A stretch of DNA of 64,000 nucleotides from the NCBI RefSeq assembly GCF_015670745.1, contig NZ_JADPCH010000012.1, forward strand, positions 1-64,000, written 5' to 3'. The notes under the pieces were generated by a model, which saw only the letters and a program-made list of their open reading frames with translations, did no database searches and had not been told where the DNA came from. The translations under genes were made by a program, and so were the position numbers. The stretch is from Collinsella aerofaciens. Lineage in GTDB: Bacteria > Actinomycetota > Coriobacteriia > Coriobacteriales > Coriobacteriaceae. Below, piece by piece: positions 2,630-60,981 of the stretch. Position 1 is the stretch's first letter. Each line of letters begins with the position of its first letter.

Positions 2630-3166
2630 TTACTTGCGGACGACCTTGACGATGGCGTCACCGGCGGCGACGGCGGACTCTGCCTCAACGGTGAGCTCGA
2701 CATCGGCAAACTCGGCGGTGTTGGACACGGCCACGACGACGCAGTCCTTGTAACCGGCAGCGGCGATCTTGGCGCGGTCGATCTTGAGTATGGGCTGGCC
2801 AGCCTTCACAACGTCGTCGGCCTTGACGAAGCCCTCGAAGCCATCGCCGTTCATGTTGACGGTATCGACGCCAACGTGCACCAGAACCTCGATGCCGCTA
2901 TCGGACTGCAGGCCCACGGCGTGACCCATGGTGACGGTCACCTTACCGTCGCAGGGAGCGTAGACCAGATCGTCCTCGGGCCACACGGCACAGCCCTTGC
3001 CCAGAACCTCGCCACCAAAGACGGGATCGGGCACGTCGGCCATCTTGATGACCTTGCCCTTGACGGGCGAGCACAGCACGTCGGCGCCGGCAGAAGCAGA
3101 GATGGAGGCCGGAGCAGCGGCAGCCGCGGGCTCAGCCTTCTTCTTGAACATATCAAACAGACCCAT
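2630..3166 (-). CDS. crr: PTS glucose-type EIIA component
   Basis: A 178-residue EIIA-Glc-type phosphocarrier. It takes phosphate from HPr and passes it to an EIIB domain during sugar uptake; in other bacteria it also serves as a carbon-status signal. H82 and H97 (in GIEVLVHVGVDTV) are 15 residues apart, exactly as H75 and H90 of the E. coli protein, and H97 is the phosphorylation site. The MGLFDMFKKK start is typical, followed by an Ala-rich linker and then SPVKGKVI. An AGGAG ribosome site precedes ATG 3166; an in-frame upstream extension is rejected. It stands alone, with its own promoter and terminator, so it probably serves several permeases encoded elsewhere. Confidence 0.93.
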   Translation of the reverse strand: MGLFDMFKKKAEPAAAAAPASISASAGADVLCSPVKGKVIKMADVPDPVFGGEVLGKGCAVWPEDDLVYAPCDGKVTVTMGHAVGLQSDSGIEVLVHVGVDTVNMNGDGFEGFVKADDVVKAGQPILKIDRAKIAAAGYKDCVVVAVSNTAEFADVELTVEAESAVAAGDAIVKVVRK

Positions 3167-3244: not shown

Positions 3245-3653
3245 GGTGGGGACTCGAATCGCAAGCCCTTCCCGGTAGTGCTCGTGGGATGAGCATCTCC
3301 TTTGCATCGCGGTTCGATAAGCCGAGTATCGCCCACGCGCGGGACGGGCAGAAGCGGGCACGCCAAACCCGATACTTCTTTTCGCAGCGGCACCCCGCCG
3401 CCACCCCGCTCCTGGCACCTCCTGATACCTACCGAAACGTGCCAAAATAAACCCGTCCCTTTTTGGTAGGTTTGGCGAGTGTGGATTTTCGGACGCTTAA
3501 CTAACGAGCGTGGATAATCTCCCACTTTGACTTTGAGGCCGTCACCGAGCCAAAAACGGGAGATTATCCACGTTCATTTTGGATGACCCCCCCCCGTACC
3601 AAGCCGAGCTCCATGGTCAAGTAATAACGACTTCTCATCATTAGATTGTTTAC
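3245..3653. repeat. Gene-free stretch with two palindromes
   Basis: No gene seen. Two inverted repeats are present. One pairs 3427-3437 with 3460-3471 (ACCTACCGAAA against TTTTTGGTAGGT). The other pairs 3506-3523 with 3558-3575 as an 18-bp stem, GAGCGTGGATAATCTCCC. The second has a twin at 4950-5013 on the other side of the Fic gene; the two loops share CTTTGA and GCCAAAAAC. The stretch turns AT-rich towards 3653. A run of nine C at about 3589-3597 is a possible slippage site. Confidence 0.7.
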
Positions 3654-9344: not shown

Positions 9345-10889
9345 CTAGTCCTTGGGTGTCCAGGACCAGAAGAAGTTGATAAGGGCCACACGCGAGGCGG
9401 TACCGGCCTTTTTGTTGATCGAGGAAATGTGGCGATAGAGCGTGGAGCGCGAAAGAAAGAGCGTTGTGGCGATGTCCTGAACGCTCTGGTCCGAAACGCC
9501 CAAGACCTCAAGAATATCGCGCTCGCGCTCTGTAAGCCCAAAGGTGGCGACGAAGGCATCAAGGCGTTCATCGGACGTGAGCTCCGCTGCCTCCACGGGC
9601 TCGGGGTCGGAGCATGTGGGCGCAAGATCCCCACCAAGATCGTCGGTGGCAAGCGGCAGTCCGTCCCGCATCGCGGCATCATCGGCCCGTTGCCCCAACT
9701 GCCCCAGCAGCGTAATCGCAATGCCCACAAACATCACGAGCGCCGCACCGACCGCAGCCAGCACATTTTGACTCGAGATAATCGCCACTGCCGGCGCCGT
9801 CACGAACATCGAGCACACGTTGTTGACGACGCGACCCATGCACGGCCAAAAATATGACCAGCGCGCATAGAGCGAGACGGCGGCATATTTTGTGGTAAAG
9901 AACACCACGAAAAAGCCCAAGCCCAGATAAAAGATGATCGTGGCAGCAAGCTCGTTGCCGCCATTGCCATCGACGATGAGCACAAAGAACGAAAGCGTGG
10001 ACAGTATGGCGGCACATGTCATGCCGATATTCATATACGAGCGGCCGTGCAGGTCAAATAGTGCGCCAGCGACCAACGAGCTCACGACAAGCAGCAGGCG
10101 CGGCCAATCGCCCAAATCGACGGCTCCGACAGCATGCAGGGTCGTGAAGCCCGCGTTGAGAGCGGCGAATACGCTGGAAAGATACGCCGTCGCCACGGTC
10201 AGGCGAACTACGGCGCGACGGAATGCCGCCTTTGCCTCGGGATCGTCATGCCACTTGGCGCCATATTCCAGAGCATCTACCGAAAGCCCGGCAGCACTGG
10301 GTTCAAAGTTGGGATCGGACTCGTCGCGCAGCTTGGCGCGTCGGGCACCGTGGAGCAACGCCACCTGCGCGATCGCACAGACGACCAGAACAGCCTGCTG
10401 AGGAATGCCGACAGGCACCACCATGTGGTTGAGAACCTGCACCAGAACGCCCATGGCGTAAGAAAGTGCGGCGGCGCGCGCCAAGCAGGGCGTTCGCGCA
10501 AAGCGCCTCGCAAAATTTGCATGAGCAGTCGATCCGCAGTAGCCCAGCGCGCAGCACGCCACCAAACCGCCGGTAATTACCACCTCAACCTGAACCGCCA
10601 TAATCAACAGCAGCAATGCCGCCACCAGCAAAACGCCCGTGACGTCACTCGTCGCGTCAATGGCATGGGGACGGCGATAGTACAGAATGGGACGCACAAA
10701 AAAGCCAATCACGCTCGCGCCGATGACAAGGCTCTCATAAATAACGACCTCGTTCGGAGACACGAACTCGGCCATGCGCACATCAAAAAGATACTCGCAC
10801 GCCAAAAACGTGAAGAAGAACAGCACCAGGCATATAATCTCCCGAATGCCCCGACGCAAATATGCGATTGTGTCTCCCATGCCCCTCAT
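9345..10889 (-). CDS. Membrane-anchored LuxR-family regulator
   Basis: A 514-residue protein with about 12 hydrophobic helices (residues 15-420) followed by a C-terminal LuxR/GerE DNA-binding domain (TERERDILEVL, then LFLSRSTLYRHISSI). This architecture, a transporter-like membrane module joined directly to a helix-turn-helix, is characteristic of Coriobacteriia such as Eggerthella and Slackia. The proteins are thought to sense a ligand in the membrane and regulate nearby genes. ATG 10889 is chosen for a GGGGGT six bases upstream; a TTG at 10910 would add seven residues. The target is not evident: the divergent SPFH operon at 11265 is the nearest candidate. Confidence 0.85.
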   Translation of the reverse strand: MRGMGDTIAYLRRGIREIICLVLFFFTFLACEYLFDVRMAEFVSPNEVVIYESLVIGASVIGFFVRPILYYRRPHAIDATSDVTGVLLVAALLLLIMAVQVEVVITGGLVACCALGYCGSTAHANFARRFARTPCLARAAALSYAMGVLVQVLNHMVVPVGIPQQAVLVVCAIAQVALLHGARRAKLRDESDPNFEPSAAGLSVDALEYGAKWHDDPEAKAAFRRAVVRLTVATAYLSSVFAALNAGFTTLHAVGAVDLGDWPRLLLVVSSLVAGALFDLHGRSYMNIGMTCAAILSTLSFFVLIVDGNGGNELAATIIFYLGLGFFVVFFTTKYAAVSLYARWSYFWPCMGRVVNNVCSMFVTAPAVAIISSQNVLAAVGAALVMFVGIAITLLGQLGQRADDAAMRDGLPLATDDLGGDLAPTCSDPEPVEAAELTSDERLDAFVATFGLTERERDILEVLGVSDQSVQDIATTLFLSRSTLYRHISSINKKAGTASRVALINFFWSWTPKD

Positions 10890-19779: not shown

Positions 19780-19830
19780 CGCCCCAAACCACCGCAAAGG
19801 AGACAGGCACCTTTGTGGTGGTTTGGGGCG
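19780..19830. repeat. Palindrome of the CCACCGCAAAGG family
   Basis: A 21-bp arm (19780-19800) and its partner (19810-19830) pair with one mismatch around the loop AGACAGGCA. The inner arm ACCACCGCAAAGG / CCTTTGTGG also occurs at 6279-6310 inside the mgtA leader. It lies five bases from the stop codon of the DUF4867 gene. Confidence 0.8.
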
Positions 19831-57370: not shown

Positions 57371-59401
57371 CTACAGCTCGTTGGCCGCGTGATACGCCGT
57401 GCGAATGGCGCTCGCGATGTCGGCGGTGCGCTCGCCCGAGCAGTCGCCCACGCAGGTCACGGGCACCGTCACGCCGTCCAGGTCAAACGCGTTGGCCTTG
57501 GAGCCCACGGCCATCACCACGTAATCGCAGGCGATCTTCACCGGCTCCTCGGCGCCGTCCTCGGCGGTGCGAACGGCCTCCACGCCCTCGTCAGTAATGG
57601 CGGTCAGGCGGGTCTTCACGTGCTGCTCCACGTTGTGCTCGGCAAAGTCGCTCATAATCAGCGGCAGGATGGTCTCGGACTCGCCCGCGGCAATCTTGTC
57701 GAGCATCTCCACGATCGCCACCTCGCAGCCGTGCTGCAGCAGATACTCGGCAGTCTCGGTGCCCACCAGGCCACCGCCAATGACGGCGACGCGGCCGCTG
57801 AGCTCCACCTTGCCGGCCAGCACGTCCCAGCTCGAGACGACCTTGTCCGAGTCGGCGCCCGGAACGGGGATGACCACGTCGTGCGCGCCCACGGCCACAA
57901 TCGCGGCGTCGGCGGCGTTGAGGTCCTCAGCGGTAGCGGCATGGCTGAGCTCAACCTTCACGCCCAGGCCAGGCAGAATCTTCTCGTAGTACTCGACCGA
58001 GCGCATGATCTCGTCCTTGCGCGGAGGCGCAGCCGCCAGCACAATCTGGCCGCCCAAGTGATCGCTCGCCTCGTAGATGGTCACGTCGTAGCCGCGCTTG
58101 GCCGCCACGCGTGCGGCCTCCAGGCCGGCAATACCGCCGCCCACCACGGCGATCTTCTTGTCGCCCTCGCCCGGCTTGATGGCGATGGTCGCCTCGTCGC
58201 CGTTCTCGGCATTGAGCACGCACGAGATGTACTTGCGGTTTTGAATCGCGTCGACGCAGCCCTTGTTGCAGTTGAGGCACTCGCGGATGGGCTCGCCCGT
58301 AGCGGCCTTCAGCGCAATGTCGGGGTCGCACATGAGCGAGCGGCCATAGGCGATGATGTCGGCGGCGCCGTCTTCCAGAATCTTCTCGCCGGCCTCGACC
58401 GAGACAACGCGGCCGACGGTTGCCACCGGCACGGAGACCAGGGCCTTGACGCGCTCGGCCACGGGCAGCGTCCAGTTGTAGGGCATGGCGCCCATGGGCG
58501 GAATGGTGTCGCCCATGTTGCCGGTGTGGTTGGCCTGTGCGACCTGGATCATATCGATGCCCGCGCCCTCGAGCAGCTTGGCAAACTCGCAGGCCTCGTC
58601 GGGCTGCAGGCCGCCCTTGCCGCGCGGCGTGCCGTCGGGGTTCTCCATGATCACGGGGAGCTTGTACTCCACCATCAGCTGCGGCGCGGCCTCCTTAATG
58701 GCAGCGACGACCTCCAGCGCGTAGCGAACGCGGTTCTCGAACGAACCACCGTACTCGTCGGTGCGTTGGTTGAGGATGGCCGAGCACAGCGAACCCACCA
58801 AGCGGTCGCCGTGGACCTCGATGGCATCGATCCCGGCCTGCTGTGCGCGAGCGGCCGAGGCAGCGATGGCCTCCTTGATCTGGGTGAGTTGCTCCACACT
58901 CGCCTCGTTCACAAAGTGCTGCATGTCGTGGTGCAGCTTGGCGTAGGCCTGGTTGCGGATCTCGTTGGACTCGGCCATCTTGGCGGCAAAGGTCTCCTCG
59001 TCGCCGGCGGCCTTGGCCTCCTGCGCGGCCTTGGCGGCGGCCATGGATCCCATGACCATGCGGCCGACACCGGGCACATCGTACTCGGGGTGGAACAGCT
59101 GCAGCGCGACCTTGGCGCCGTGCTTGTGGACGACGTCGGCCAGGGCCTTAAACGTGGGGATCTGGGCGTCGGTTGCCAGCTTGGGCGTGGGGCTCGCGGT
59201 CATGACGGGAGCGACGTCGCCGATGACGATGTAGCTCACGCCGCCACGGGCCAGGCGCTCGTAAAAAGCCAGGCTGCGCTCGCCGATGGAACCGTCACGC
59301 TCCTCGTAGCCGGTGGTCAGCGGCGGAAACATAATGCGGTTCTTGAGCTCAAGGGGGCCAACCGTAATGGGCTGGAGCAGCTTGGATGCAGGTGTGGTCA
59401 T
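57371..59401 (-). CDS. Old-Yellow-Enzyme-family FMN/FAD/Fe-S reductase (dienoyl-CoA reductase type)
   Basis: A 676-residue soluble enzyme. The N-terminal FMN-binding TIM barrel (about 1-365) has PPLTTGYEERDG, EVHGDRLVG and GRSLMCDPD. A [4Fe-4S] motif CLNCNKGC...C follows. A C-terminal FAD/NAD(P) domain pair (about 400-676) has VVGGGIAGLEAA and IGGGLVGTETAEYL. This is the plan of 2,4-dienoyl-CoA reductase, trimethylamine dehydrogenase and gut bile-acid or steroid enone reductases. EVHGDRLVG has Asp where many members have HGAHGYL, so substrate cannot be assigned. ATG 59401 has AGAGAGG at good distance; ATG 59407 is six bases upstream. Confidence 0.88.
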   Translation of the reverse strand: MTTPASKLLQPITVGPLELKNRIMFPPLTTGYEERDGSIGERSLAFYERLARGGVSYIVIGDVAPVMTASPTPKLATDAQIPTFKALADVVHKHGAKVALQLFHPEYDVPGVGRMVMGSMAAAKAAQEAKAAGDEETFAAKMAESNEIRNQAYAKLHHDMQHFVNEASVEQLTQIKEAIAASAARAQQAGIDAIEVHGDRLVGSLCSAILNQRTDEYGGSFENRVRYALEVVAAIKEAAPQLMVEYKLPVIMENPDGTPRGKGGLQPDEACEFAKLLEGAGIDMIQVAQANHTGNMGDTIPPMGAMPYNWTLPVAERVKALVSVPVATVGRVVSVEAGEKILEDGAADIIAYGRSLMCDPDIALKAATGEPIRECLNCNKGCVDAIQNRKYISCVLNAENGDEATIAIKPGEGDKKIAVVGGGIAGLEAARVAAKRGYDVTIYEASDHLGGQIVLAAAPPRKDEIMRSVEYYEKILPGLGVKVELSHAATAEDLNAADAAIVAVGAHDVVIPVPGADSDKVVSSWDVLAGKVELSGRVAVIGGGLVGTETAEYLLQHGCEVAIVEMLDKIAAGESETILPLIMSDFAEHNVEQHVKTRLTAITDEGVEAVRTAEDGAEEPVKIACDYVVMAVGSKANAFDLDGVTVPVTCVGDCSGERTADIASAIRTAYHAANEL

Positions 59402-59548
59402 GGACATTCCTCTCTTGTAGGCGCGGCGGCGATGTTGCCGCGTAGTTGTCTAGAGGATATGGCATGGGGGCACAGCGGCACAACGGAAATCGGCGAATAT
59501 CAGGTGGCGGCAGGTGGATGGGGGTGGGCGGGGCGGCCCGTCGGTTTG

Positions 59549-59845
59549 TCTCAATCTGTAACAGTTACGCGGCAAAACTGGGTCTTACTGTTACAGATCA
59601 AGATATTCCTCTCGACCCATCCTCAACAATCTCGATCTGTAACAGCTAGGCCCACTTTTGACCCCTACCTGTTACAGATCGAGACAAACCAAACCCGCCT
59701 GCTAGAAAATCTCAATCTATAACAACAACTCGGCAAAATCCGTCCCTCGTGTTACAGATTTAGACAAACACGACCCAACCCACCGGTATATCTCGATCTG
59801 TAACACCCAGCCGCCTAAATCGGGTCTAGATGTTACAGATCGAGA
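59549..59845. repeat. Array of eight alternating 15-bp repeats (four tandem hairpins)
   Basis: The repeat TCTCGATCTGTAACA and its reverse complement alternate at 59549(+), 59589(-), 59630(+), 59670(-), 59710(+), 59750(-), 59791(+) and 59831(-): spacing 40, 41, 40, 40, 40, 41, 40 bp. Each plus/minus pair encloses exactly 25 nt, and pairs are separated by 25-26 nt. Enclosed segments are related but diverged (CGGCAAAA and GGGTC recur). Arms are far better kept than loops. No gene lies in 59402-59934. Confidence 0.9.
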
Positions 59846-59895: not shown

Positions 59896-59925
59896 AAAAA
59901 AGCTCGCCGGCTAGGCCGACGAGCT
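59896..59925 (-). terminator. Terminator of the initiator tRNA gene
   Basis: On the minus strand an 11-bp stem AGCTCGTCGGC / GCCGGCGAGCT with a three-base loop is followed by UUUUU, ten bases after the tRNA CCA end. Confidence 0.85.
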
Positions 59926-59934
59926 GCAAGTTCT

Positions 59935-60011
59935 TGGTCGCGGGGGTAGGATTTGAACCTACGACCTCCGGGTTATGAGCCCGGCGAGCTACCAGACTGC
60001 TCCACCCCGCA
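59935..60011 (-). tRNA. Initiator tRNA-fMet (anticodon CAT)
   Basis: A 77-nt tRNA with encoded CCA. The anticodon loop CTCATAA is flanked by a stem with three consecutive G-C pairs (GGG:CCC), the hallmark of initiator tRNA. The acceptor end starts with U opposite G72, a weak first pair as expected for initiators. TTCAAATCC forms the T loop. A -10-like TATTAT lies at 60043-60048 upstream. Confidence 0.95.
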
Positions 60012-60207: not shown

Positions 60208-60981
60208 ATGCTGCTCGCTATCGATATGGGAAACACGCAGACGGCCATGGGGCTGTTTGACGGAGACGAGCTGGTGCAGTCGTGGCGTATGCCCACCGAC
60301 CGCTCCTATACCGCCGACGAGATCCACGTGCGCCTGATGGGCTTCTTTAAGATGTACGACCTCTCGCTCGGCGCGGTCGACGCGATCGCCTTTGCCGGCG
60401 TGGTGCCGCAGCTCTCGCGCGAGTGGCACGCCGTGGCCGACCGCATTGCCGCGGACGCCATCGTCATCGGGCCGCAGACGGCCGCCGTGACCAAGCTGCG
60501 GGCGGCGCGCCCCCAGGCCGTTGGTGCCGACCGCATCGCCAACGCCGTCGCTGCCGAGACCTTCTACGACGCGCCGGCGATCGTGGTGGACTTTGGCACC
60601 GCAACCAATATCGACGTCATTGATGAGGACGGCTATTACATTGGCGGAGCGATTGCGCCGGGCATCCGTATCTCCATGGACGCGCTTGCTGCCCGTGCCG
60701 CCAAGCTCGCCAGCGTGCCGCTCGAGGCGCCCGAGCACGCCATCGGCCGCGATACCGAGGAGTGCATCAAGGTCGGCGCCGTAACGGGCGCCGCCGCCAT
60801 GGCTGAGGGCCTGGTCGCGCGCATGAAGCGCGAGCTGGGCCGCGAGGATGCCACCGTTATCGCCACGGGCGGTCTCGCCAGCATCGTCGCCGATTCGACC
60901 GATGCCTTCGACGTGGTCGACGGACAGCTCACCATCAAGGGTATCTGCGAAATCTACCGCCGCATGCAGGAGCTGGGATAG
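60208..60981 (+). CDS. coaX: Type III pantothenate kinase
   Basis: A 257-residue ASKHA-fold enzyme that phosphorylates pantothenate, the first step of CoA synthesis. Motifs: DMGNTQTAMGLF (phosphate 1, residues 5-16), GADRIANAVAA (substrate), VVDFGTATNIDVID (phosphate 2) and GGAIAPGI. ATG 60208 has GGGAG five bases upstream and begins at the usual MLLAIDMGNT. CoaX is insensitive to CoA feedback and needs a monovalent cation. Monocistronic. Confidence 0.95.
   Translation: MLLAIDMGNTQTAMGLFDGDELVQSWRMPTDRSYTADEIHVRLMGFFKMYDLSLGAVDAIAFAGVVPQLSREWHAVADRIAADAIVIGPQTAAVTKLRAARPQAVGADRIANAVAAETFYDAPAIVVDFGTATNIDVIDEDGYYIGGAIAPGIRISMDALAARAAKLASVPLEAPEHAIGRDTEECIKVGAVTGAAAMAEGLVARMKRELGREDATVIATGGLASIVADSTDAFDVVDGQLTIKGICEIYRRMQELG

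Follow-up and report, generated by a model that had tools for sequence, protein, structure and literature searches.

The array lies between two protein-coding genes

The window analysed here, a 64,000-nucleotide stretch of Collinsella aerofaciens DNA (NZ_JADPCH010000012.1), holds an array of eight 15-bp arms between two protein-coding genes (Table 1). From their sequences we take the left neighbour to encode an NADH:flavin oxidoreductase-like protein and the right one a type III pantothenate kinase-like protein (coaX). A tRNA-Met (CAT) gene, presumably of the initiator type given the GGG/CCC of its anticodon stem, lies on the right side of the array together with its own terminator-like hairpin. 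The arms alternate strictly in strand at intervals of 40, 41, 40, 40, 40, 41 and 40 bp; four match the arm consensus exactly, two with one mismatch and two with two mismatches. The enclosed segments are 25 nt long in all four units, and the links between units measure 26, 25 and 26 nt. For comparison, chance would give 0.78 matches with up to three mismatches over all 64 kb, and the highest count among 100 shuffles was 4. The pattern described in the initial annotation, eight alternating repeats of 15 bp with a 40-41 bp period and 25-nt loops, was thus borne out, the arms standing far above shuffle expectation.

Table 1. Positions of the array, its parts and its neighbours in the window
Feature	Position	Strand	Details
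Array of eight arms	59549-59845		C. aerofaciens NZ_JADPCH010000012.1; arm starts 59549, 59589, 59630, 59670, 59710, 59750, 59791, 59831
Unit 1	59549..59603		arm 59549-59563 (+), loop 59564-59588 (25 nt), arm 59589-59603 (-)
Inter-unit spacer 1-2	59604..59629		26 bp
Unit 2	59630..59684		arms 59630-59644 (+) and 59670-59684 (-), both exact; loop 59645-59669
Inter-unit spacer 2-3	59685..59709		25 bp
Unit 3	59710..59764		two mismatches in each arm; loop 59725-59749
Inter-unit spacer 3-4	59765..59790		26 bp
Unit 4	59791..59845		arms 59791-59805 (+) and 59831-59845 (-), both exact; loop 59806-59830
Terminator-like hairpin of the tRNA gene	59901..59925	-	distinct from the array
tRNA-Met (CAT)	59935..60011	-	neighbour, outside the array
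Left neighbour gene	57371..59407	-	start ~140 bp from the array
Right neighbour gene	60208..60981	+	beside the array

The palindromic unit has a fixed geometry

The palindromic unit can be written as TCTCRATCTGTAACA-N25-TGTTACAGATYGAGA, that is, 15 + 25 + 15 = 55 bp. Among 162 distinct arrays of the C. aerofaciens complex the distance between the two arms of a unit is exactly 40 bp in 404 of 408 pairs, and the step from one unit to the next is 40 or 41 bp in 246 of 255 cases (148 of 40, 98 of 41, 8 of 39 and 1 of 38 bp). All but three of the first 113 arrays consist of whole units only, and those three are probably cut or degraded. On its outer side the arm is followed, reading outward, by Y and then by an A/T triplet. 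Within the arm, a purine is kept at position 5 while A and G swap freely, as expected for a protein contact.

The enclosed segments diverge at constant length, as the initial annotation had noted, but they are not free, since a degenerate consensus is common to the loops: NCTAG, a G/C-rich stretch, an A/T core, in most cases AAAA in one orientation, a second G/C-rich stretch and CTAGN. The orientation of the loop differs from unit to unit. The further claim that all arms face the same side of the DNA holds only approximately: at 10.5 bp per turn, 40-41 bp correspond to 3.8-3.9 turns, a drift of ~55-69 degrees per arm, whereas they make 4.0 turns at 10.0-10.1 bp per turn, so that the arms would share one face only with a local twist of ~10.0-10.1 bp per turn.

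Dense arrays are confined to the C. aerofaciens complex

The genome from which the window comes carries ~19 arrays with ~100 arms and ~50 units; arm matches with up to two mismatches number 51 on the forward and 49 on the reverse strand, and a reversed control pattern gave 0 and 0. A search for perfect units in 45 Collinsella genomes gave matches in 25, with 10-28 units in 24 of them and a single one in G038. Many units are present in each of the 25 genomes examined from the C. aerofaciens complex; by a threshold of at least 10 perfect units the complex has 24 or 25 carriers, depending on the treatment of G034 (72% complete, 10 units) and G038, and the strict count is without effect on the conclusion. 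A sequence model, with matches tallied on both strands, raised the number to ~40-60 units in most carriers. The remaining 20 Collinsella genomes hold none, or one or two units, and a search of the whole genus with the model found units outside the complex only as singletons or a pair, in G017, G030, G038 and G039. Across the order (299 genomes, 107 genera) units occur in Collinsella alone. Inspection of two non-carrier species, over 280 kb of G014 and 120 kb of G039, gave no variant arms.

The unit of G038 (L237) closely matches unit 4 of the window and lies beside a tRNA-fMet gene, the DNA there being almost identical to the window's, while the unit or units of G030 (L251) stand beside a closely matching GntR gene. 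This suggests that both moved between species with neighbouring C. aerofaciens DNA, contamination of the assemblies being the alternative. G017 and G039 each have a single unit upstream of clpB, where an array is present in the complex too. The distance between carriers and non-carriers is large (coaX is 97-98% identical among carriers and at most 75% identical to non-carriers), and a presence/absence search for the binding protein therefore has little power.

Orthologous loci keep arms, lengths and phase

Within the complex the arrays occupy ~24 conserved intergenic loci with 1-8 units per locus and diverged loops. Grouping by flanks placed 114 arrays in 24 groups, the two largest of which fuse neighbouring arrays. 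Rather than the random spacing or single repeats that the initial annotation associated with chance expansion, homologous loci show a phase that is kept and a unit number that varies, and they provide a natural set of ~24 loci with 0 to 8 units each. Between matched orthologous units the arms differ by 2.2% (tolerant CR positions excluded) and the loops by 14%; the slow-changing parts of the loops are the A/T core and the T of CTAG. Tandem duplication as a recent source of units was rejected because two units of one array resemble each other scarcely more than units from different arrays do (loop identity 12.9/25 within and 12.5/25 between arrays).

The RluA/DeoR locus illustrates this constancy. 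Among ten aligned alleles there is no true indel in the array over ~690 pairwise substitutions, the 9 indels tallied in its columns being one repeat just outside the array in L286, as opposed to 67 indels per 628 substitutions in the left flank of the same alleles. Several species have no array at this locus, and arrays are thus dispensable at any single locus. The array-free allele of G033 (L301) has one copy of a hairpin that array-bearing alleles have on both sides, which fits loss of the array by deletion between direct repeats. In G005 one unit of this locus was lost by the joining of two arms. Recombination between arms during unit loss means that phase can be kept, and it leaves the constant loop length unexplained.

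The arrays do not look like a current mobile element

These losses bear on the possibility that the units descend from an old non-autonomous dispersed repeat (BIME-, REPIN- or MITE-like) that spread under an active transposase and is now passive, its spacing being an ancestral fossil. We regard this as unlikely, though it accounts for a good deal: the arrays are intergenic, dispersed, restricted to one clade and set apart from the starts of genes, orthologous loci differ in copy number, half-loops such as ACTCGGCAAAA turn up at different loci, and whole-unit loss by arm recombination would keep the phase for free (L300). Decay of a passive repeat, however, should give indels and arm mutations, yet arms and lengths are kept while the loops diverge, and the ~24 loci are common across the complex, unlike those of an active mobile family. 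Nor was an autonomous element with these arms found in G000, where arms that are exact or have one mismatch all lie in phased arrays and none as transposon ends, so that a MITE of an autonomous transposon was rejected; at the RluA/DeoR locus the array-free alleles fit deletion between flanking repeats. Phage carriage was rejected as well: viral contigs contained no full unit, and a lone partnerless arm in L222 was taken as a chance match.

The only match in a plasmid record also counts for little in favour of mobility, since it is probably a mislabelled piece of chromosome. The record in question, NZ_OY725717.1 (L223; 899,693 bp), is entered as C. aerofaciens plasmid 6; among its genes are gltB and smpB, and it has 27 array matches. 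An IS200/IS605 element adjoins a half-unit at the mntH locus of strain TSDC17.2-1.1 (L223, ~9979-10881); the mntH locus of G002 has the same half-unit without the IS. A similar IS insertion lies beside another array in L297.

RAYT-type genes are present whether or not a genome has arrays, and no arms adjoin them. Matches to Y1_Tnp/RAYT, which include IS200-type transposases, were found in 39 of the 45 genomes irrespective of arrays, namely in all carriers and in 14 of the 20 genomes without dense arrays, and at five RAYT-type loci (G000, G002) the best arm-like match had 3-5 mismatches; mobilisation by RAYT was accordingly rejected. Two further candidates were set aside. An invertible element disagrees with 1058 matched loops in the same orientation versus 17 inverted, and ten inverted-loop examples inspected all belong to one group that merges adjacent arrays. 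A CRISPR-like array with guides, judged by repeats and loops, disagrees with the alternating orientation of the repeats and with loops that have a consensus and are conserved at orthologous loci.

BIMEs are described as dispersed intergenic repeats with regular spacing and alternating orientation (PMC2817692), and the tags of REPs are given as GTAG or CGTC (PMC3733652). The Collinsella arrays resemble the BIME/REP elements of enterobacteria and Pseudomonas in being alternating, regularly spaced and intergenic, with a copy number that varies per array, but the arm TCTCRATCTGTAACA is not itself a palindrome or a hairpin and bears neither of these tags, the palindrome being the 55-bp arm pair; moreover, the spacing is fixed (40 within and 40-41 bp between units), no RAYT gene lies beside the arms and the loci are common across the complex. 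With REPINs they share two inverted short copies around a spacer, tens of copies per genome and vertical inheritance, whereas the Collinsella arms do not flank the RAYT genes tested and the units stand together in phased arrays. BOX elements of Streptococcus pneumoniae are modular intergenic repeats with distinct A, B and C modules and a variable number of inner modules. Both families are modular and intergenic, and by description the Collinsella arrays are set apart by a single unit type, diverged loops and a fixed phase. In open-access text on Collinsella, Coriobacteria or repeats of this kind we found no description of the repeat.

The arms are probably read as double-stranded DNA

The initial annotation had offered two readings, an assembly site for a repeat-binding protein or a set of four RNA hairpins. 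Folding is much stronger for the units than for shuffled sequences (z −2.5 to −9.8; in the window, unit 2 reaches −17.1 kcal/mol as a single strand and unit 3, the weakest, −5 kcal/mol), which would suit RNA hairpins acting in transcripts as terminators, 3′-end stabilisers or small RNAs. No compensatory changes were found across the loop, however, and pairing there is below composition expectation (0.16 against 0.37 at positions 23-33, z −4.5), although this low pairing stems partly from the directional loop consensus and is by itself no proof of selection against hairpins. The deficit is strongest at positions 23-33, 24-32 and 25-31, and 500 of 500 shuffles paired at least as well as the real loops. 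At arm position 5, read along transcription, G-U was not preferred over A-C (17 and 14 cases). RNA-type covariation is thus absent. With fewer pairs across the loop than chance would give and no excess of G-U over A-C, we favour recognition of the arms as double-stranded DNA, presumably by a protein, over hairpins formed in RNA.

The genes around the arrays give a mixed picture for an RNA role. Among 104 arrays surveyed, none overlaps a predicted gene, and 40 lie between convergent, 21 between divergent and 34 between tandem genes, with 9 at contig ends, the gene calls coming from a simple codon-usage caller and one locus being counted in several genomes. The frequency of convergent contexts (40/95) and the position of the tandem arrays in the window's own genome, nearer to the preceding stop codon than to the start of the following gene, would be in keeping with hairpins at transcript ends. 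Against this, 21 arrays lie between divergent genes, T-rich DNA follows only 57 of 324 array ends, and a terminator-like hairpin already stands between gene end and array at 48 of 169 facing gene ends as compared with 5 in shuffles, which places part of the arrays beyond a terminator. A search of the array region of the window against Rfam returned only the tRNA above the gathering score and no family at the array. On balance we consider the RNA-hairpin reading improbable; some arrays lie 9-50 bp past a stop codon with no terminator detected in between, and at arrays closely behind stop codons a role in transcription is conceivable. An intrinsic terminator, as a GC-rich hairpin with a short loop and a T run, was rejected given the 25-nt loop, the few T-rich outward ends (57/324) and a terminator scan of the window that called none of the array's units.

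A second dispersed hairpin, ACCACCACAAAGGGGACAGGCACCTTTGTGGTGGTTTT, resembles an intrinsic terminator and occurs in L131 (~2980-3000 and 3350-3400), in L277, L278 and L019, and at 19800-19818 of the window. Of 162 arrays, 41 have the core of this hairpin no more than 100 bp away, 8 of them on both sides and mostly pointing at the array; 400 kb of G002 contain 6 copies of the core. Several Collinsella genomes share a palindrome like TATTCCTCAAAATTGAAAATTTTTCAGTTTTGAGGAATA on the upstream side of the coaX locus (L151, L152, L153), and TATTCCTCAAA is a frequent 11-mer in G014.

Position on the chromosome and neighbouring genes

The initial annotation had tied the array to the initiator tRNA gene, a link that proved incidental: it is a feature of this locus, and the other arrays of this genome stand beside diverse genes with no common function. 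The idea of a regulon was rejected likewise, the genes that flank arrays being unrelated in function.

In two genomes assembled into one main contig the arrays lean weakly to the dnaA half (Rayleigh p ~0.02); the values became 0.16 and 0.38 after arrays within 50 kb were merged. Strong clustering at the origin was rejected, as it is not significant once clusters are merged. The sopC centromere of the F plasmid consists of tandem 43-bp repeats with inverted sites for a binding protein. The Collinsella arrays are similar in having tandem units of ~40 bp with inverted sites and differ in occupying ~20 chromosomal sites rather than one, with no partition genes recognised beside them. A partition or origin-region site array, that is, a dispersed centromere loaded by a ParB-like protein, would explain multiple inverted sites at a fixed period, the layout of plasmid centromeres, as well as the lean to the dnaA half; since that lean disappears as a significant result on merging and arrays reach ~1 Mb from dnaA, we judge this explanation very improbable. 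To our knowledge, the arm does not match the usual chromosomal parS.

A proposed model of phased protein-binding sites

Taken as a whole, the interpretation given in the initial annotation is partly supported, and its proposal of an assembly site for a repeat-binding protein is the one that we favour, in view of arms and spacing kept across the clade at ~24 loci. With slightly better than even confidence, and from comparative sequence data, we propose that each array serves as a group of binding sites, in double-stranded DNA, for a putative protein of the C. aerofaciens complex. That the loops have diverged so much and yet almost none has changed length supports such a binding array. The putative protein would read the 15-bp arm, extended outward by the A/T triplet and inward by NCTAG. 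The elementary palindromic site would be a pair of facing arms, spaced by exactly 40 bp and enclosing a short A/T tract, and adjacent units at 40-41 bp would allow cooperative assembly into an ordered, probably wrapped nucleoprotein patch. We infer that the sites could align only if the DNA were overtwisted or wrapped.

With ~20 such patches in intergenic DNA around the chromosome, the protein might serve chromosome architecture or act as an insulator, roles that we prefer to a regulon because the genes differ and every orientation occurs. More tentatively, and at less than even confidence, the arrays may belong to a chromosome-organising system in which a putative protein specific to the complex occupies ~20 phased arrays, with ~50 units and ~100 arms in all, and holds the surrounding DNA in a set geometry. 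If so, it would be the spacing that is selected, with the intervening sequence almost free.

Dispersed palindromic repeats are common in bacteria, and a selfish remnant is usually hard to tell from a functional site. Here, the conservation of arms and geometry as against the divergence of the loops offers a comparative sign of function, in an abundant bacterium of the human gut.
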